Positions 691-11,383 of a stretch of DNA of 38,873 nt are shown one piece after another. The DNA is from Magnetovibrio sp. Lineage in GTDB: Bacteria > Pseudomonadota > Alphaproteobacteria > Rhodospirillales > Casp-alpha2. The position numbers and the translations under genes are program-made. How positions within the stretch are numbered: position 1 is the stretch's first letter; the number at the start of each line of letters is the position of its first letter. The notes below the pieces were generated by a model. The model did no database searches. It saw only the letters and a list, made by a program, of their open reading frames with translations, and was not told the DNA's origin. The stretch lies in contig PARE01000012.1 in NCBI GenBank assembly GCA_002709525.1, positions 67,453 through 106,325 on the forward strand, given 5' to 3'.

Positions 691-1461
691 ATGAGCGTGA
701 CGCAGTTGCAATCGAAAATTAGCGAAGCGGAGTGGCAAACCCGGGTCGACTTGGCGGCGCTTTACCGATTGATCCATTACTACGGCTGGTCAGATCTATT
801 TGGAACCCATATTTCGGCGCGCGTTCCCGATCAGCCGGATACCTTCTTGCTCAATCCCTATGGCTTCCTCTTCGAAGAGATTACCGCCTCCTGTCTTGTG
901 AAGGTGGATGAGGACGGCAACGAATTGGACAAGTCGGACAACGGTATCAACCCCGCCGGTTTTACCATCCACAGTGCCGTCCATGCGGCGAGGTCGGATA
1001 TCAATTTCGTCATACATACCCACACGGCCGCTGGCACTGGCGTCGCTGTCCAGCGCCACGGTATTCTGCCCCTGACACAGCACTCTCTGGTCGTTATAGC
1101 GCAGACCGGCTATCACGATTACGAAGGAATCGCGACGGACCTGGACGAGCGCGAACGACTGGCTCGCGATCTTGATGACAAACGGGTGTTGGTCTTGCGC
1201 AACCATGGATTGTTGACGGTCGGTGCGACTGCGGGCGAGGCGTTCATGTGGATGTACCGGGCGGAACGGGCTTGCCGCATGCAGCTTGCCCATCAGCAAT
1301 CCGGTGCCGAAGTAATAGAGATTCCGGACGAGGTGCAGCGCATGACGATAGAGCGTAACATTTTCAACAATTCCGAAAAGGGCTTTCGGACTATCGGCGA
1401 AGTGGAATGGCCTGGCCTAATCCGGCAGATGGACCGTGTGGACTCATCTTATAAAAACTAA
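691..1461 (+). CDS. Class II aldolase/adducin family protein
   Basis: 256-aa ORF with IHTHTAAGTGVAVQ and LRNHGLLTVGATAGEAF class II aldolase motifs; AAGGAGGG RBS-like sequence upstream. Confidence 0.9.
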   Translation: MSVTQLQSKISEAEWQTRVDLAALYRLIHYYGWSDLFGTHISARVPDQPDTFLLNPYGFLFEEITASCLVKVDEDGNELDKSDNGINPAGFTIHSAVHAARSDINFVIHTHTAAGTGVAVQRHGILPLTQHSLVVIAQTGYHDYEGIATDLDERERLARDLDDKRVLVLRNHGLLTVGATAGEAFMWMYRAERACRMQLAHQQSGAEVIEIPDEVQRMTIERNIFNNSEKGFRTIGEVEWPGLIRQMDRVDSSYKN

Positions 1462-1695
1462 ACGTTTCGGGGGTTTGGGTCACATAGACGACTATACAAG
1501 CATGCGAGTGCTTGGATGACGGCACGTCACTGGGCCAGGAGGTGAGTGATAATCCCTGAACGCCAACTACGGGCGTGCTATAGCGCCCACACCTGTCAGA
1601 GTAACAAAGCGCCTGTCTCTGTCTTAAACGCAGTTATTTCTATTTCAAATGAGAAATCAAGCGCCGCGAGATGCGAAACTGCGCAGACGACAATG

Positions 1696-2214
1696 TCAAA
1701 GCGGATAGACCAGCAAGATGTCAACACGGCGGGACTCCAGGACCACCCGGCGGTCCTTGAATAATGGCTTACCGCTCACAAATGTGATCACGTCCACATA
1801 CTTCCCCGTGGCGTAGATTTCCATGCGACCGTCCTGCATGGTTCGAGTAATATTGAAGTTCGATCTGGCGTTTATGATGCCGTCATCGCTTTGAGATAGC
1901 TTTGGTCGGCCCGTAATGTGGCTGTTGGTGTGCGGCTCAAAGATGTTCGCAGTTCTTAGCGCCAAAATTCGGTCGACCATCATGCCGCGGCCGTCGCAGA
2001 ATAGGATACCTAATGGAAGGTTCTGATCGTAGCTCTCTCGCGGTATGATCTGGTAAATGCCGTCCTCGGTAAAGAAGTCGGGCCAGCGGTCCAATTCAAA
2101 GTCATCGAGGGCGTGGGCATAGTCGGTCAGAAGATCTTCGACTTGTTGGCGAATGAGCGTGTCGGTTATCGGGGTGGCGTTCGAATTGGCGACGTCAGCA
2201 GGGAAGATACTCAT
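1696..2214 (-). CDS. Aromatic-ring-hydroxylating dioxygenase beta subunit
   Basis: SnoaL/NTF2-like beta-subunit sequence (DYAHALDDFELDRWPDFFTEDGIYQI...RSNFNITRTMQDG); immediately downstream of the alpha subunit. Start taken at internal MSIFPADV. Confidence 0.88.
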   Translation of the reverse strand: MSIFPADVANSNATPITDTLIRQQVEDLLTDYAHALDDFELDRWPDFFTEDGIYQIIPRESYDQNLPLGILFCDGRGMMVDRILALRTANIFEPHTNSHITGRPKLSQSDDGIINARSNFNITRTMQDGRMEIYATGKYVDVITFVSGKPLFKDRRVVLESRRVDILLVYPL

Positions 2215-2224
2215 GATTCTATCG

Positions 2225-3502
2225 TCACCGGAATCCCATGATTCCGCAATAGCCCTCCCAAAAACCGCGGATGGCGGCCTCTGTGGCACGAGAGTTTTCG
2301 GAACTTTCTGCATCACGACCGCCCATCTCAAGGAACGCTTCTCGGTCAGCGCTCATGTGGGTGCCGCGCTGCACGAATTCGTTGATGCATCCGTCTTCCA
2401 GGCTTACCAGCCCCGCAGTACCCGTCAAGTTCCCTTGAACGACGCGCATACGGGTCTGTTCATCTGTATCGTCTTCGTAACCTAGATAGATCCAGAACAA
2501 TTCCGTTTCATCGACGCCGCGGGGCACGAAGAACCGCACGCACAACGAATTCAGCGTGTAATGGAGGGTTAGGTTTGGGAAGACTGTCTGAATGCAATGT
2601 GTGATGCCGTCAGGAAATTCGTCCCAGGATTTTAGAAGCTCTGGGCCGGACAACTTGGATCCGTATTGAGCGGCATGGACACCTGCCTTGTCGTACTCGT
2701 CCGATTCGTCCAATTCGTGGCGTTTTGCATAGGAAATGTGATGCCACTTGTCGTCGCCCATAATAATGCCACCGTCCATATCCATGCGGTTCACCTTGAA
2801 GGTCACATAGAACGTGTGCAGCAATGTCGCATGATAAGAGTCGCGGACGTTTTCAGCATAGAGCTTCCAGTTATTGTGGATGATCTGGCTATGCACGCCC
2901 AAGGGCTTAAGCGGCCGGTCAAAATTACGCTTGACCATCCAGCTGAGTTTCTCACCGAGATATTCCTCCATGGACGGCATGTCGTCGGCGAATGAGCCAA
3001 ACACCAGGCCGCAATATATCTCCACATTAATCCGCTGCATGCGGTGTTTGGCCGGGTCGAAGTCATCGGGCATACCACCTTTCCCTTTAATGCCGTTGCG
3101 GAAAGCGATGCCCTTTAACTGACCGCGAAGATCATATGTCCACGAATGGTATACGCAGGTCATCCCGTTCTTAGCCTTGTTGCCGCGTTCTTGGAGGCAC
3201 ACGAGAGCCCCCTTATGCGCGCAACGATTAACTAGCGCATTTATGTCGCCGTTTTCGTCGCGGATCACGACGATGGGCGTTTCGCCGATGAAGGTGGTTT
3301 TGAAGTCACCAGGGTTCGATATATCGATCTCTAGGCACAGATAGTTCCAGACCTTGCCGCGGAAGATACGCTGTTGCTCCAGGTCGTAAATATCTGGATC
3401 GGAAAAGAGCCGGAATGGCACTCGGGTCACCCCCGGTTCCGGCCAGGAAAAGGGCTCGCTCAGCTCGTTCGCATGAGTCAATACCATGTTGTTCTCCTGC
3501 AC
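2225..3502 (-). CDS. Aromatic-ring-hydroxylating (Rieske) dioxygenase alpha subunit
   Basis: Rieske motif CAHKG...CVYHSW, catalytic-domain Fe ligand region NVRDSYHATLLH; 425 aa. Confidence 0.93.
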   Translation of the reverse strand: MQENNMVLTHANELSEPFSWPEPGVTRVPFRLFSDPDIYDLEQQRIFRGKVWNYLCLEIDISNPGDFKTTFIGETPIVVIRDENGDINALVNRCAHKGALVCLQERGNKAKNGMTCVYHSWTYDLRGQLKGIAFRNGIKGKGGMPDDFDPAKHRMQRINVEIYCGLVFGSFADDMPSMEEYLGEKLSWMVKRNFDRPLKPLGVHSQIIHNNWKLYAENVRDSYHATLLHTFYVTFKVNRMDMDGGIIMGDDKWHHISYAKRHELDESDEYDKAGVHAAQYGSKLSGPELLKSWDEFPDGITHCIQTVFPNLTLHYTLNSLCVRFFVPRGVDETELFWIYLGYEDDTDEQTRMRVVQGNLTGTAGLVSLEDGCINEFVQRGTHMSADREAFLEMGGRDAESSENSRATEAAIRGFWEGYCGIMGFR

Positions 3503-3902
3503 AGAGTTTCCAGCTCCCTCAAGTGTCTAAAGACGTGTCTGCCAAGGCAAGTCTCGAACGCTTCATTTTCATTTGGTAGGAGTGCCCCGTTGGAGCAGAG
3601 GAGAGCACTCCGTGGCGCGATTTCCTTGGCGATTCTCCTATGTATTGACCGGGGCTATAAGGACTAGGCGATTTGCAAAAATCGAGAAAAATCTGTTGGA
3701 AATGTCGGGCTGGTTGAAAGTGGATTTGTGGCAAACGATTAATGGGTTAGTGGACAGAATAGTCGCCAACGGTCCAATTGAGCAGGGCGTTTAAATCACT
3801 TTGTCATTTGTATGCCTAATTCCACCCATTCTTTAGATAGACCTCAGCGTTTAATTGGATTTGTTCATTCCAAATACAGATCAGGCCCCAGTTGATGCCT
3901 GT

Positions 3903-4505
3903 CTAATAGATTGGTGCGGTCAACTTCATTGCGGGGCGATTGCTAATCCTTTCATACCAGTCGGCCAATAGCGGGCGCCCGTCGCGCCAATTGTCGCTCG
4001 GGTGGCGCCAGTCCGCATACCCTAGAGCAGAGATTGTTGTGATGATTCCTAAATTGATTGTATCGCCAAAATCTGCAGCGGCCTCATTCAGTGCGTCGTA
4101 AGTGGCCATGGCGATTTTTGCATCTTTCTCTTTGACGGTCGACACTTGGTGACTCTCATCGCGGCGACCCTCATGCGTCCGAAAGTAAAGTGTGTCCATC
4201 AGCACAGACGCGGTACCTTCAAGTTGAATGGCTTTGTCTCGTTCTTCCGGCTGGGGAGGCGTGAGCTTATTTCCGGATAGATCGTCAAGATACCGGCAGA
4301 TCAATAGGCTCTCAACGATGAAAGCACCGGTATTTGTAATCAACGCAGGCACTTTCCCCCCTGGGCCATTGGCGAACAGGACGGCATCGTTTTCAGCCCG
4401 GGGTGTAAGGTCTTCTTCTTCAACCTCGTCCTGGAGACCGGCCTCATGCAGTACCAAGCGTGGTCGCCGCGCATAAGGAGAGTTTTGTGAGAAATATAAT
4501 TTCAT
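3903..4505 (-). CDS. Glutathione S-transferase family protein
   Basis: N-terminal thioredoxin-like domain MKLYFSQNSPYARRPRLVLHEAGL...VPALITNTGAFIVESLLICRYLDD; start at internal MKLYF. Confidence 0.88.
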   Translation of the reverse strand: MKLYFSQNSPYARRPRLVLHEAGLQDEVEEEDLTPRAENDAVLFANGPGGKVPALITNTGAFIVESLLICRYLDDLSGNKLTPPQPEERDKAIQLEGTASVLMDTLYFRTHEGRRDESHQVSTVKEKDAKIAMATYDALNEAAADFGDTINLGIITTISALGYADWRHPSDNWRDGRPLLADWYERISNRPAMKLTAPIY

Positions 4506-4748
4506 GGTCACACTCCGTTCTGAATACGAATTAGATCTTATAGCCATCTCTTAGTATGTTTGGTCTGGCTATTGCGTGGCTATTCACCTCATTCATTGCA
4601 ATCTATCAACGGATAATAGCTTTGAATTTCATTTTCTAAAACACGATACATATTCACAACTTGTTACGCACTTTGGAGGGTACAAGGATCTTCAGCGACA
4701 CTAGCGAATGGTAACTATAAATCGGGGGTGCCGCTTCGAGAGGAGCAC

Positions 4749-5456
4749 CTAACATAGACCGACGACTGGGATACATGCGCCGTGGACGGCACTGGAATCT
4801 TCCGAACAAAGAAAAAGGATGACGTTAGCGAGTTTCTCCGGCGATACCCAATCATTAGGGTCGGCCGCGGGCAGTGCGCGACGGTTCTCAGGCGTGTCGA
4901 TGATGCTTGGCATAACGCAATTGACGTTCACGCCGTTGCCGCGGAGCTCTGAGGACATTGTTTCTGTGAGTCGGAGTACGGCACTTTTAGCAGCAATATA
5001 CGCACCCATGTTGGCTATACCTTCACGCGCTGCATTTGCCCCAATGGTAACAATTTTTCCAGAACTGTTCTCGATCATCGTTGGGACGACCGCCGCTATA
5101 GAATTTAAAAGGGTGCGGGCGTTGAGGTCCATCATCAAGTCCCATTTATCGCTCGGGAGCGAATGAACGCTTTCTCCCATATGGAAGCCGCCAGCGATTG
5201 CCGCGAGGATGTCTATCCGGCCAAAACTGACCTTGGCCTCGACGACGGCGGCTTCAATCTCGTCAGGCGCCAGCAAGTTGAGCGGGCATTTGATCCTTTG
5301 CCCTTCATCACCGGGATAGGCTGCATCGAGTGCGTCTGCATTTAGATCGACAAGGACAAGGTTTGCTCCGGCCCTATCGAACGCATTAGCCGTTGCACGC
5401 CCTAAATTACCTGCGGCACCGGTAATCATTACCGTCTTTCCTTTGAAACTTGGCAT
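4749..5456 (-). CDS. SDR family NAD(P)-dependent oxidoreductase
   Basis: TGAAGNLGRATA cofactor motif, IAGGF, catalytic YIAAK, NVNCVMPSIIDTP. Confidence 0.92.
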   Translation of the reverse strand: MPSFKGKTVMITGAAGNLGRATANAFDRAGANLVLVDLNADALDAAYPGDEGQRIKCPLNLLAPDEIEAAVVEAKVSFGRIDILAAIAGGFHMGESVHSLPSDKWDLMMDLNARTLLNSIAAVVPTMIENSSGKIVTIGANAAREGIANMGAYIAAKSAVLRLTETMSSELRGNGVNVNCVMPSIIDTPENRRALPAADPNDWVSPEKLANVILFLCSEDSSAVHGACIPVVGLC

Positions 5457-5705
5457 TTTTTATTCCCCCGGTGCAGGCAGGGCCAGTGACACTGCGACGA
5501 CACTAACTTTGAATAATAGCTGACGGAGCCTCACTCTCTAAACGTTCAAAGTAATAATCCTTTGATAACGTTCATAATCGGTCTCGTCTCAGCGAACGGA
5601 TAAATTATTCTTCATAACATTTGCGACCATCATAAAATTAGAATCCTATATGAATAACTGACCTTGCGAAGGCTAATCGCATTGCGATTAACATAGTCCC
5701 TCCGA

Positions 5706-6287
5706 TCATTCCCAGTCATTCTCTTTCAAATTGTAAATGCTAGCGTTGTATTTTAGTTCTGCCGACGAACCGACAGAGAAGAATGGCTCTTTATGGAGTT
5801 CAATCGTATGCTCTCCTTGAATCACTTCGGTCATGTCAAAGTTTTTGTTGTTGTGTTCAAGAATCTTTTTGAATTTAGGCTTCGTCTGAAAAGCATGGAT
5901 GATCAAACAGCAGGAGGCGCCTCCCGAGTGCTCCCTTAACACAACGTAATCATCCGAGAGTTTCTTGGAGTTGAAGCCTTCCAGAAACATAATGCTACTA
6001 GATTTGAGAGTCTGTGCATGAAGCAACTTGCCTGTCTTTACCGTTCTCACAACCAGTAATTCATCACTATACCAGGCTGCCTCATAATTGCGGTTTTGTG
6101 GCAAATCCTCGAAGGGTAATGTTTGAGGTGTGATTACGTCAAAGCGGAGTCCATTGCTAATCTTCGTCGTTACCAACAACGTACGAACTACATTATAGTC
6201 TAAATATTCAGCGGATGGCTCAGAAAATACGTGAGAGGGTTGGCTCAGTGACAATACGAAAAGGCTTAAACAAAATAATTTTTTCAT
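5706..6287 (-). CDS. Hypothetical exported protein
   Basis: 193-aa ORF with clear signal peptide MKKLFCLSLFVLSLSQPSHVFSEP; no family recognised. Confidence 0.7.
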   Translation of the reverse strand: MKKLFCLSLFVLSLSQPSHVFSEPSAEYLDYNVVRTLLVTTKISNGLRFDVITPQTLPFEDLPQNRNYEAAWYSDELLVVRTVKTGKLLHAQTLKSSSIMFLEGFNSKKLSDDYVVLREHSGGASCCLIIHAFQTKPKFKKILEHNNKNFDMTEVIQGEHTIELHKEPFFSVGSSAELKYNASIYNLKENDWE

Positions 6288-6339
6288 GGTCTCAGATCTT
6301 ATAACGAGCGCCTAACAGGTCTAATTCTGAAAAGATAAT

Positions 6340-6358
6340 GGCGGACACAGTGTCCGCC
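6340..6358. promoter_or_regulatory. Perfect inverted repeat GGCGGACAC-A-GTGTCCGCC, possible operator
   Basis: 9-bp arms with 1-nt centre, about 53 bp upstream of the 6287 start codon. Confidence 0.4.
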
Positions 6359-6831
6359 GATAGGCAATATAAAACGGATGTTTCAGACGGTTATATGCTT
6401 TTGATGACAATTCTAACTATACTTTGAACAAACGTCAGTCCCTAATTTTGTGTGTTTCGCACGACAACCAATTTATATGGCTTGCAATTAATAAGGCGCG
6501 CTCAAACCTACATTCCGATCTTCGCCAGTGCCGCTAGAATCAGTGACGCTACAAGAAGGCCAACTGGAAGTGGAAGCTGATGAATCTGAGAGAGAGAACG
6601 ATGTCATCTGTCCAAAAAATATTGAAAGCGGCTTTAATTGCGTTTGTCGGAGCCATTGCTGCTTTGGGTATCGCGACGGGTATTTTCTTGGTTCGCACGA
6701 GAGAGCAACAAATGACACATAGTGCCATGAGCATTTATGGGTTCATTTTTACAAGTTGCCTCAGTAAAACAAAGCCGTTGACGTAAAACATTCTGAGGAT
6801 TGCCAGGGCAATCTTGCATTGCGGTTTCTCG

Positions 6832-7650
6832 TCAAGTTCGCTTCGGCAAGAACTCCAAATTCCGGGTCCGGCCATCGGTATGGATAGCAATGTAACCCAT
6901 GGCGTCCAGCGCATTGATGATGCCTTGGTTTCGCTCGCGCTCCAGTACACCGTCAACCTCGACCCAGATGGATTGGACTTGGCCTTTAGCTAGAAGATTG
7001 GCCGCACCCTCAAGAATTTCCTTTTCGGTACTATCTACATCCAATTTTATATGTGTTGGCAGAGGCGGGTCATAAAGAGAGATGAAAGTATCGATGTTGA
7101 AGCCTAATGTGGGGTGAGCAATCTTAATATTGATCTGTTCGTCCCAGCTGTGGGTGTCGCGCTCAAAGGCGTGCATCGAGCTGCCAGAAATATTGCCAGC
7201 CATGTTTAGTTTGCCGAGCCGGGTCTGATTATCGAAAGCCAGGCAATAGGCATCGACGCGGTCCAAGAGTCCGTTGATTTCGAGGTTTTTCATCAGCGTG
7301 AAGTAGGTCGATGACGCGGGTTCAAACGCTAAGGTCCGGTGGCGGGCTAGGCCGGCGTACATGGTATAGATGCCGACGTTGGCGCCAATATCCCAGAACA
7401 CTGTGTCGACTGGCATTTTGTCGATCCATTCCAACGTGTCGGGTTCGTGAGTCATGTAGACCGGCGGATACATGGCGGTTTCGCGCGAATTACAATACAT
7501 GGATAGCTCACCGTGCGGTGTCTGAACTGGAATTTTATCAATTAGGTATTGCGCCGCCGTCGCCCGGCACGACGTGCGCCGGACCTGGTTCAGCGGTGCG
7601 GAAATGGTGCGGCCGAGGCCTGCGATTAGACGCGCAACGGTCTTGCTCAT
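6832..7650 (-). CDS. FkbM family methyltransferase
   Basis: SAM-binding DTVFWDIGANVGIYTMYAG, IKLDVDSTEKEILEGA and IWVEVDG motifs of the FkbM family. Confidence 0.9.
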   Translation of the reverse strand: MSKTVARLIAGLGRTISAPLNQVRRTSCRATAAQYLIDKIPVQTPHGELSMYCNSRETAMYPPVYMTHEPDTLEWIDKMPVDTVFWDIGANVGIYTMYAGLARHRTLAFEPASSTYFTLMKNLEINGLLDRVDAYCLAFDNQTRLGKLNMAGNISGSSMHAFERDTHSWDEQINIKIAHPTLGFNIDTFISLYDPPLPTHIKLDVDSTEKEILEGAANLLAKGQVQSIWVEVDGVLERERNQGIINALDAMGYIAIHTDGRTRNLEFLPKRT

Positions 7651-8597
7651 GGTTGGGCTCTGCGTTGTTCGATGGTATCCTCAACGATCGCGATGAAGCG
7701 CTCAAACAGTTCTTGGTTCTGAGCGACACCCGATAAATGCAGGACCTTGACACTCTCCAGGTCGCCACCGTCATATTCATGGTTGAGGACGCTGTTGTAA
7801 ATGTGGTTTGGGATGGTGCGGATTTTGACGGGCGTGCCGTTGAAATCAACTGTGCCGACGCCCCAAGAGTCCAAAACGTTATCTTCAGTGCCGCGCACCC
7901 GCTCCTCAACCATCCGGCTGAGCGATGCGATTACGCGAAGCTTTTCCGTGGTGGTCGCTAGCGACTTGTACCATTCATCGAGAAAAGCTGTGCGCGCTAC
8001 CACATCGGCTCCAAAGCCCATAATGCCGTCGCTCAAGGCATGGCAGCGGTTGGGTTCCCAAAGTTGTTTTTCGGGCTCCAGGCTCGGCATGATGACGTCG
8101 GGCGCACCCTCGTAGACAACGTCCAGATCCTCGACCAGATAGGCGTCGGCATCCAAAAAGAAAAATGGACGTTCGCCGACGCGCCGGGCACAATCGCCAA
8201 GGGCGTAGCATTTGTGCAGCAACAGGTTTTCATAACGCATTGCGCGATCAAGAATGGCGCGAGCGGGGCGTGAGCCCGGGAATTTTTTAAGAAAAAACTT
8301 GTTGAAGCGACGCTTTAAACTGACCCTTTCGCGGGAATTAAAAGCCCTCGCCAGTTCATTAAGTCCGTCGGCACCCAATGGATCAAGCAATTCCATCGTA
8401 TCGGAAACCCTATCGCTCCAGCTGACGACATCGACGCCGGACTGAAAAGTTGAGTTGCTGGGTCGGCCGTTTTCATCGCCCCAGTCGTAGACCAAAACGT
8501 CGGCATTAGGATAAAGGCGTCGCAGCAACTCAATGTTTTTGCGGATCAAGAAGTGATAATCATGCGTTCCGAAGTATATAAAAAGAAGGTTATCCAT
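7647..8597 (-). CDS. Glycosyltransferase-like (nucleotide-diphospho-sugar transferase fold) protein
   Basis: PFFFLDADAYLVEDLD DxD-like motif, YxNADVLVYDWG N-terminal region; ATGA overlap with the FkbM start at 7647-7650. Start at internal MDNLLFIYFG. Confidence 0.65.
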   Translation of the reverse strand: MDNLLFIYFGTHDYHFLIRKNIELLRRLYPNADVLVYDWGDENGRPSNSTFQSGVDVVSWSDRVSDTMELLDPLGADGLNELARAFNSRERVSLKRRFNKFFLKKFPGSRPARAILDRAMRYENLLLHKCYALGDCARRVGERPFFFLDADAYLVEDLDVVYEGAPDVIMPSLEPEKQLWEPNRCHALSDGIMGFGADVVARTAFLDEWYKSLATTTEKLRVIASLSRMVEERVRGTEDNVLDSWGVGTVDFNGTPVKIRTIPNHIYNSVLNHEYDGGDLESVKVLHLSGVAQNQELFERFIAIVEDTIEQRRAQP

Positions 8598-8877
8598 CTT
8601 TACGCTTTCTAAAAATCGCTTTGGAATAAGAGAGGATGATTTGTTTGAGTGAGGGCAAGACTTCTTCTCTCTGTGCGAGTGCACCAGCGTTCACTTCTGC
8701 GTATCGAAGCAATGTCGTGGTGGTGGTAATATCTCTCCTTGCGCCGCTGAGGTACCCATAAGCAGAATCCCAGATATTCTGTATCGACTTACAAAAATTA
8801 CGAATAACATCGTTTCTAATTTCACCCTCAAAGAAAGTGAAGGCAGAGTGTAAAAAGCCGTAACTCTCTCTTAGAAA
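8590..8877 (-). pseudogene. 5'-truncated ORF remnant (95 codons, no ATG start)
   Basis: Manual reverse-strand translation: FLRESYGFLHSAFTFFEGEIRNDVIRNFCKSIQNIWDSAYGYLSGARRDITTTTTLLRYAEVNAGALAQREEVLPSLKQIILSYSKAIFRKRKDG*, in-frame TGA at 8878-8880, no in-frame Met; stop overlaps the next gene's start (ATGGATAA). Not in the supplied track. Confidence 0.5.
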
Positions 8878-8922
8878 TCAGAATTTCTGACCTACGGTTA
8901 CTCGCTGTAATAAAGAGAAAGT

Positions 8923-9012
8923 TGGCGGACAGGGTGGGATTCGAACCCACGAAGGGCGTTAACCCTTACTCCCTTAGCAGGGGAGCGCCTTCAGCCACTC
9001 GGCCACCTGTCC
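8923..9012 (-). tRNA. tRNA-Ser(GCT)
   Basis: Reverse complement GGACAGGTGGCCGAGTGGCTGAAGGCGCTCCCCTGCTAAGGGAGTAAGGGTTAACGCCCTTCGTGGGTTCGAATCCCACCCTGTCCGCCA: acceptor stem GGACAGG/CCTGTCC, anticodon loop CTGCTAA, long variable arm, TTCGAAT T-loop, encoded CCA. Confidence 0.97.
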
Positions 9013-9016
9013 GTCC
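8973..9016. repeat. Left copy of 44-bp direct repeat (tRNA-Ser 5' half)
   Basis: CTTAGCAGGGGAGCGCCTTCAGCCACTCGGCCACCTGTCCGTCC; matches 11223-11266 at 43/44 positions. Confidence 0.95.
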
Positions 9017-9084
9017 TATGTAACCCACTGTAGAACCTAGTTATTCGTGTCGAGTGCTTTGTCGAGAGAAAAGAACAGACACTG

Positions 9085-9108
9085 AACTGGGTCACTAACT
9101 GGGTCACT
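9085..9108. repeat. Tandem direct repeat AACTGGGTCACT x2
   Basis: Two perfect adjacent 12-bp copies, 9085-9096 and 9097-9108. Confidence 0.9.
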
Positions 9109-9347
9109 AAAACCTTAAAGCCTATTTCACCTACCTAGTTGGCCGCGCCCAGCGTCTCGACTTTCTGTCGATCTTCTTATATGGCCGAGCGGTAGCTGAC
9201 AAGAACACTTCCTTGGTTTTTCTGCCCAGCTACTAGCCGCCTACCCATCTCAGTGAATGAGGTGAAAGGGTCGGATTATGGCCGGACTGGATATATTAGC
9301 GGATCACTATAAGATCTCGTTGTTATTTAAAATGAGGGCAGGCGACT

Positions 9348-10823
9348 ATGACAATGCAAACTGGTCGGTTTGATCTCTATGATTTCTTGGCCCGGCATAA
9401 GAGCGAGATTGTTGCCGAGGCGGAGACTATCGGTAAAGATCTAGCGATTCCAGATAAACTGAGAGATCGTCTGGGGTCAACGGGCGCGAACTCAGCTTTA
9501 CCGGGAACATTGCGGCGTCGCTGCCTCGACGCGATCGATGACGGTATGTCAAGCACTCAGTCTCCGAAGGAGATCGGTGATGATATCCGCAGACTGGTCA
9601 AATCAGTATACGGTGACGAATACGACGCCGTTCCGACAAATTCTTGCGAGTCGGCATTACTCGTAACCTACGACGCATTGCTGACGCCTCCGAAAGTTGG
9701 CCCAGGTGAGCCGTACCGTTCGCGCGTCGTCGGGTTAGTTGAACGACATGCCGAACATCATCTGAGTTACGGTCGCCCCTTCCCACCGCGATACAAAGAT
9801 GGCTTTGCGGACCGTGGCGCCACTGCAGGTGAATTGGGACTGATCGGCCGTGCCCAGTATGCGACAGACTGCGTCATGGTGCCGATGTCCGGCGCGCGTT
9901 ATGAACTCCACGGTATCAAAATGCATCCCACCCCACTATTGATGGAAACGGATGCCGAGCGGACTACTGAAGCCATTAAGCGGGCGGCATCGATCCAAGC
10001 GTCCAACCTCTCTGGGTTCGTTACTTTGGGATACGATACTATCGGTTATGGCTACGGCGAAAAGGCCGATTGCGACGTTCCGATGTTACAGAAAAACATC
10101 GGTAATTTAGCTGCCCTATGCGGTGTACCCTACATAACTGACAATGCCTGGGGTTTGCCTTTTGTTGGCGCTGATCTCCGTAAACTTGGTGCTGACGTAA
10201 TGCTCTATAGCATGGACAAAGTCGGAGGGGCACCGACTTCAGGGCTGATCATTGGCAAGGAGTGGCCGATGGTAAATATTCGCCGTGCTATGGGGGTGCA
10301 CGGGGAGAGATTTGGGACCCCCTCCGCTCATGGTAAGGGTCTGCATGTTCACGCTGACCCGGGCAAGATGTCGATGCTGGGTCTCCTCGCCGCGTTACGT
10401 ATTCTGAAGGACGAACCCGAAAGTATAACTGAATCCATTGACGACATATTCGATATCGTCACGGACGAGCATTCGCGTATGAAAGGCAATTTACCCGATG
10501 GAATCGTAATTACGAAATCTTATAATTTTGGCGGTGTTGAGGTCAATTATGAGGGAACATGGCGAGCTTCCAACGGCGGGTCGAAGATCGGAATCCCGAT
10601 TTTCAACAATGAGGACCGTGTTGCTGGTTCGAACATTCTTTCTCACGTGACCGCGGCTATGGGGATCCTGCCTGGGGTTACAGATGACGCCAATGTGATC
10701 ATCAACCCGGGTCTCGGAACATCTGACAGTAATGGGCAGCTAATCGAAGAAAACATGCGCCTCGTGGCTCGCGGCATGTTTCGTGCCTTTGCGCTAATGG
10801 CCGATTGGGCCTGCCGGGTTTGA
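9348..10823 (+). CDS. PLP-dependent fold-type I enzyme, SelA (L-seryl-tRNA(Sec) selenium transferase)-like
   Basis: 491 aa. DNAWGLPF, LGADVMLYSMDKVGGAPTSGLIIGKE (compare SelA SGDKLLGGPQAGIIVGKK) and GKMSMLGLLAALRIL (compare SelA DKMTLAALEATLR). Confidence 0.7.
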   Translation: MTMQTGRFDLYDFLARHKSEIVAEAETIGKDLAIPDKLRDRLGSTGANSALPGTLRRRCLDAIDDGMSSTQSPKEIGDDIRRLVKSVYGDEYDAVPTNSCESALLVTYDALLTPPKVGPGEPYRSRVVGLVERHAEHHLSYGRPFPPRYKDGFADRGATAGELGLIGRAQYATDCVMVPMSGARYELHGIKMHPTPLLMETDAERTTEAIKRAASIQASNLSGFVTLGYDTIGYGYGEKADCDVPMLQKNIGNLAALCGVPYITDNAWGLPFVGADLRKLGADVMLYSMDKVGGAPTSGLIIGKEWPMVNIRRAMGVHGERFGTPSAHGKGLHVHADPGKMSMLGLLAALRILKDEPESITESIDDIFDIVTDEHSRMKGNLPDGIVITKSYNFGGVEVNYEGTWRASNGGSKIGIPIFNNEDRVAGSNILSHVTAAMGILPGVTDDANVIINPGLGTSDSNGQLIEENMRLVARGMFRAFALMADWACRV

Positions 10824-11108
10824 GTTCCCATAGAGAGAAAGATGACCGACGACATCAATCAAGATAAATCGGCTAAGACCCCGTGCATTTCTATTCACTA
10901 CATCTTTTTAATCCTTTTTAGGTTACTGTCGCTTGATGGCGACGGGACGTATTATAGTTTACCAACTCTATAGAGGCCTGAGGTTGACCTAGATTTTCAA
11001 GGTCACACTCCTAGTTGGTTGGGTCACAGTGTCAGTGATGGTGGCCGCATGGGCGACGTCCGGAAGGCTCCCGACATAGAACCCTACACAAAAAATTCTG
11101 GGTCATAA

Positions 11109-11129
11109 ACTGGGTCCAAAAGACCCAGT
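11109..11129. repeat. Inverted repeat ACTGGGTC-CAAAA-GACCCAGT
   Basis: 8-bp perfect stem, 5-nt loop; arm identical to the core of the 9085-9108 repeats. Confidence 0.8.
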
Positions 11130-11222
11130 GGGGTGTAGAGTTTGTCGGCTTTTGTCGGTCTTTGAAGGAAATAATTGGCAGAAAACCGCAGAAAACGTGG
11201 AATCGACAAATCCGACAGCGGT

Positions 11223-11266
11223 CTTAGCAGGGAAGCGCCTTCAGCCACTCGGCCACCTGTCCGTCC
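11223..11266. repeat. Right copy of 44-bp direct repeat: partial tRNA-Ser (acceptor 5' strand through anticodon loop)
   Basis: CTTAGCAGGGAAGCGCCTTCAGCCACTCGGCCACCTGTCCGTCC; one mismatch at 11233 relative to 8983; the remaining tRNA 3' half is absent. Confidence 0.95.
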
Positions 11267-11383
11267 GGCTCGTATCGGCGGCCGGGACCACCTGGGAAAG
11301 ACTTTCTAGCCCCCTCGTCCGGAAGTATCAACCTGCTTCGTGGAGTCTAATTCCTCCGCCTATTGTCCCGATTCTGGCGGCTC

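Follow-up and report, generated by a model that had tools for sequence, protein, structure and literature searches.

Beside the tRNA-Ser(GCT) gene of a Magnetovibrio sp. lies a second copy of the gene's own 5' half, and the locus raises the question of what the two copies enclose and how the enclosed DNA came to occupy the 5' side of a tRNA. The DNA analysed here, referred to as the window, is a stretch of 38,873 nucleotides (contig C12:67453-106325 of the host assembly, G000). The assembly is fragmented, comprises 79 contigs and 3.18 Mb, is 81.75% complete and has an estimated contamination of 5.15%. From sequence comparison we propose, at a probability of roughly 0.94, that the element in the window is a deleted prophage, which would have integrated via the 5' half of tRNA-Ser(GCT) and undergone internal deletion or replacement since. 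The following features mark its borders:

8923-9012, minus strand: intact tRNA-Ser(GCT) (ARAGORN; the only tRNA-Ser(GCT) called)
8973-9016: attL core, from the anticodon loop to 4 bp past the tRNA 5' end (repeat search; equal to L193:16302-16345 of the phage contig described below)
8974-8980: 7-nt anticodon loop TTAGCAG, presumed overlap or strand-exchange segment (sequence and inference)
11223-11266: attR core, the displaced original 5' half of tRNA-Ser (repeat search; one mismatch, at 11233)
11303-11331, minus strand: stranded site, presumed to be the tRNA-Ser promoter before the insertion, TTGATA-N17-TAGAAA (conservation and position)

The initial annotation had described a near-exact repeat of the tRNA-Ser 5' half 2250 bp away and an unrepeated 3' half, and both descriptions hold. 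The direct repeat (8973-9016 and 11223-11266) is 44 nt long and 43/44 identical, with a spacing of 2250, and its second copy lies on the tRNA 5' side in the same orientation as the intact gene, which appears to be the sole tRNA-Ser(GCT) gene in this assembly. One end of the repeated block lies 1 bp outside the 7-nt anticodon loop, the other 4 bp past the 5' end of the tRNA. Such pairs with at most one mismatch are expected by chance about 3e-16 times in the window. In a whole-genome search the 44-bp block was found in two copies only in the host, and a 33-bp 5'-half pattern, present in 64/317 genomes of the order, occurs in two copies only in the window's genome. Of the tRNA 3' half, no stretch as long as 11 bases recurs within the window, and no displaced 3' tRNA fragment, as in the usual 3'-half tRNA islands, was found beyond the tRNA 3' end.

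An empty site, which the initial annotation had proposed to seek in close relatives, is present in G003, a genome of the same genus. Here the intact tRNA-Ser is joined directly to the sequence that lies right of 11266 in the window, the insert is absent and the junction agrees with excision at the core. On the right flank, window and G003 remain syntenic past a YbaK-like gene, in blocks 74-86% identical over several kb. The genomes G002 and G004 also possess the tRNA-Ser and lack the insert, and the far left of the window is syntenic with G002. From these three genomes the inserted unit is therefore 2250 bp, one core copy included. Two outcomes had been named as speaking against such an element, namely two full tRNA-Ser genes in relatives or conservation of the gene content at 9.0-11.2 kb; in no relative does the locus hold a second full tRNA-Ser gene, and G003, with its empty site, lacks that content.

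A donor-type phage was found by scanning IMG/VR for the tRNA 5' half. The contig IMGVR_UViG_3300037963_003546 (G318; 43.3 kb) represents a temperate phage with terminase, portal, major head protein, primase, helicase and repressor-like genes. It holds one 44-bp core (L193:16302-16345), 44/44 identical to the attL core of the window. Window positions 8973-9220 match L193:16302-16551 (88.4% over 250 bp) and positions 11059-11266 match L193:16139-16345 (87.5% over 208 bp), the core being included in both cases; since both ends of the window element thus flank the single core of G318 (L193:16139-16551), this core is the attP. The phage integrase (L193:15035-16159) is a tyrosine integrase of 374 aa (PF00589, 6.7e-15; PHROG integrase match), whose gene stops 142 bp short of the core and whose C-terminus reads ...AKSGRLPT*. 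A tyrosine recombinase at the same repeat, for which a search among relatives had been recommended, is thereby found in a phage contig. The G318 core is also 44/44 identical to the attB of G003, which suggests that the phage has its host in or near the window's genus. The mismatch at 11233 is confined to the displaced copy (phage attP and G003 attB both have G there), as expected of a copy freed from selection. Among 317 genomes of the order no intact integrated copy of a G318-type phage was found, integrase matches being at most 40% identical. Searches for further phages by integrase and by att arm returned the same contig plus one distant contig, which leaves G318 as the single close phage contig known. 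The closest counterparts of the G318 integrase in genomes of the class are mostly neighbours of a tRNA 3' end, as is usual.

Comparison with this phage defines the following features between the two cores:

9017-9130, minus strand: int-distal att arm of the phage, adjoining the 5' end of the tRNA (88% to L193 right of attP)
9131-9223, minus strand: stump, the last ~30 codons and stop of a 1178-aa putative virion ORF of the phage (sequence match)
9221-11058: non-phage replacement segment of 1.8 kb between the two stumps (no significant tblastx match to phage)
9348-10823, plus strand: ORF for a putative 491-aa fold-type-I PLP-dependent enzyme, cargo or replacement (similarity and predicted fold)
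11059-11079, plus strand: stump of the phage integrase gene, its six C-terminal codons plus stop, SGRLPT* (sequence match)
11080-11222: phage att arm, int-proximal side (within 11059-11266, 87.5% to L193:16139-16345)

Both arms contain arm-type-like repeats, CTGGGTCACTAA twice at 9087-9110 in the first and CTGGGTC at 11098-11129 in the second. At the right end, TCC GGA AGG CTC CCG ACA TAG (11059-11079) encodes exactly the C-terminus of the phage integrase, and homology stops upstream of it. The integrase gene, intact in G318, is otherwise missing from the window element; the earlier statement that no integrase is recognisable inside overlooked these six codons and stop. Because the integrase is so reduced, the element is filed as a decayed derivative and not as an intact member. 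At the left end, the virion stump reads KTKEVFLSATARPYKK...RWARPTR*, its ending being ...KTKEVFLSATARPYKKIDRKSRRWARPTR in the window and ...KTKEVFLSATAGPYKKSGSKSSRWARPTR in the phage. The 1178-aa ORF matches PHROG families mostly of unknown function and one virion structural protein family, and its C-terminal tail is all that was found of structural or packaging genes between the att sites of the window. Elsewhere in the host assembly, an integrase fragment with a stop codon lies near the end of contig C1 (G000:C1:67-255, L061).

The 491-aa ORF has no Pfam match and no NCBIfam name at cut-off. It shows weak similarity to SelA/DgaE and has homologues 40-57% identical in scattered bacteria. A fold-type-I PLP fold is predicted for the protein, with an AlphaFold pLDDT of 80.7 and SelA and SepCysS as best PDB matches (TM 0.36-0.51 by query length). 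The gene looks like a metabolic gene and not a phage gene, because in Heliorestis and Sporomusa a homologue adjoins the gene of a GidA-like FAD protein. A phage origin of the gene was considered and rejected, since no match turned up in PHROGs families or phage records; the G318 phage lacks the PLP-enzyme segment. Several copies of the family occur in each of two other genomes (G064 and G084). Upstream of the PLP gene, a short frame beginning M[AT]GLDILADHYKI (window 9279-9316) has another copy at G000:C1:10910-10948 (L142), which precedes an oxygenase-like gene near tRNA-Pro(CGG) and differs by mostly silent changes.

The locus may be explained as follows. A temperate phage related to G318 would have entered tRNA-Ser(GCT) by means of its own tyrosine recombinase, its attP supplying the tRNA 5' half and an upstream arm presumably acting as promoter. 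Strand exchange presumably occurred within the anticodon loop: we infer this position because the cores of this phage and of unrelated phages stop at the loop, the 5'-half blocks in 28 virus contigs ending at the same boundary. At attL, the intact tRNA would be a chimera of a chromosomal 3' half and a phage 5' half, and the original 5' half and its promoter would have moved to attR, beside the integrase gene. A later internal deletion or replacement would then have taken nearly the whole prophage, the integrase up to its six terminal codons included, leaving 1.8 kb with the PLP gene. This order of deletion and cargo gain is a reconstruction, and the present element is presumably unable to move alone. 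The initial annotation had read the bracketed DNA as a possible decayed integrative element, a reading that gains support from the empty site, the phage attP and the gene stumps; among the options it left, decay agrees best with integrase and virion stumps at the two ends, and a non-autonomous or satellite-like nature fits less well.

Since attP carries the tRNA 5' half, the chimeric tRNA stays whole and its promoter must be supplied by the arm at 9017-9130, which is common to the phage, the window and G011, a genome from another genus of the family. This arm is presumed to be the replacement promoter. The putative original promoter belongs to a conserved stretch, TTTCTAGCCCCCTCGT.CGGAAGTATCAACCTGC, with TTGATA-N17-TAGAAA on the minus strand at the position expected for a tRNA promoter; the same promoter-like sequence immediately precedes the intact tRNA of G003, and a similar one is present in G002 and G004. 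A sigma-70 consensus scan scored neither the arm at 9017-9130 nor the stranded site at 11303-11331, so both promoter assignments rest on conservation and position.

In G011, the 5' side of tRNA-Ser carries the same phage-like arm and the same virion-gene tail (VGAGKTKEASLSSTVGRYKK), and a displaced 5' half was not found within 60 kb. Judging from these matches, the insertion in G011 appears to be older and further decayed, its tRNA-side end being what is left. Mobile-element DNA flanks the tRNA-Ser of G011 on both sides. On the tRNA 3' side, a gene with an integrase Arm-DNA-bind_3 domain abuts tRNA-Ser in G003 (L048:3-383), G004 (L050:10111-11481) and G011 (L051:3-872), which makes tRNA-Ser a two-sided hotspot. 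On that side of the window, about 7.4 kb (1480-8922; Rieske dioxygenase, GST, SDR, FkbM methyltransferase and others) are absent from G002, where a gene matching window 691-1461 directly abuts tRNA-Ser. No tRNA 3' fragment bounding this extra left DNA was found.

Three other explanations have to be weighed. The locus could hold a small non-autonomous, satellite-like element with intact att sites, moved in trans by the integrase of a related phage, and the retention of both cores and both att arms with their arm-type-like repeats, as well as the intact coding cargo between the att sites, would agree with this. We nevertheless consider it unlikely, since phage gene stumps at both ends mark a deletion derivative and not a purpose-built satellite, the displaced core is mutated, and the whole 9010-9347 end has no second copy in 317 genomes of the order. 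Nor was a helper integrase found in this genome, in which none of four PF00589 matches resembles the phage integrase at E<=1e-20. No genes of an integrase or replication module of its own, as in a PICI-like element, occur between 9017 and 11222.

An assembly or binning artefact that joined a phage-derived piece to the chromosome might be suspected in view of the fragmentation and estimated contamination of the assembly (5.15%). It is very improbable given the several kb of right-flank synteny with G003, the synteny of the far left with G002, and the independent presence in G011 of the tRNA-side end of a related insertion. Still closer to nil is the probability of a simple duplication, with two tandem tRNA-Ser genes of which one decayed. 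The second copy does look like a partial tRNA gene, but it is abutted by a phage att arm and not by a decayed tRNA 3' half, and G003 has one tRNA, no insert and a junction matching excision at the core; empty site and phage attP together refute such a duplication. A deleted prophage thus remains the preferred reading.

How common such 5'-half sites are in viruses was surveyed by an IMG/VR scan for CTTAGCAGGGGAGCGCCTTCRRCC, in which at least 82 occurrences were examined, those of the earlier tRNA 5'-half scan included. Among the matches listed the tRNA 3' half was absent in 33/82 (3/33 at contig ends), fractions that, like those below, are not frequencies. Of the remaining 5'-half-only sites among these matches, 28/30 have an integrase-like ORF no more than 1.5 kb away whose 3' end points towards the core, on the tRNA 5' side (n=16) or on the anticodon side (n=12). 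At 60% identity the 28 integrases listed form about 8 and 7 clusters, respectively. The unrelated virus contig IMGVR_UViG_3300049740_000984 (L196:11247-12489), for instance, has a tRNA-Ser(GCT) 5'-half attP whose integrase lies on the 5' side of the tRNA, a layout opposite to that of G318. It is conceivable, although doubtful, that these are two distinct 5'-half layouts which have arisen repeatedly, with the integrase either by the regenerated tRNA or by the displaced fragment, and that both tRNA halves are swappable when the 3'-side islands of related genomes are also considered. The second layout, to which G318 and the window belong, would in that case keep the usual target orientation, with the regenerated tRNA at the far end from the integrase.

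The locus provides a worked case that comprises an empty site, a phage attP, attL and attR with gene stumps, and the takeover of a tRNA-Ser(GCT) 5' half by a phage. The prophage has been lost, yet the host presumably still relies on the tRNA half and upstream region that it supplied. Tiny tRNA-bounded segments without an integrase can therefore be prophage scars, and 5'-half sites may be commoner in phages than counts of islands suggest.

Integration into a tRNA 5' half is a kind already known and uncommon among genomic islands. In the Islander collection, 5' tRNA fragments mark 159 islands and 3' fragments 3760 (PMC4383910). Work on thaumarchaeal elements describes 5'-distal tRNA recombination as considerably less frequent (PMC6563490), with reference to the element of Zhao and Williams (2002; J Bacteriol 184:859-860). 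The 5'-half use that the initial annotation had pointed out as unusual thus belongs to a documented minority class, and it is less exceptional than was assumed, being common for tRNA-Ser(GCT) in virus contigs. G318 shares with the ends of the window element an identical attP core and both arms at ~88%; unlike the window, it keeps the phage genes lost there and is without the PLP-enzyme segment. CalSub-E1 of Ca. C. subterraneum, an element with an archaeal host, likewise occupies the 5'-distal region of a tRNA-Ser gene (PMC6563490). Islander islands need an integrase gene inside (PMC4383910), of which the window retains the last six codons only. In their architecture, however, the 5'-fragment islands of that collection resemble the window: one end has an intact tRNA, the opposite end, on its 5' side, a displaced 5' fragment oriented like the tRNA, and the attachment site is the anticodon-centred one of class A (PMC4383910).
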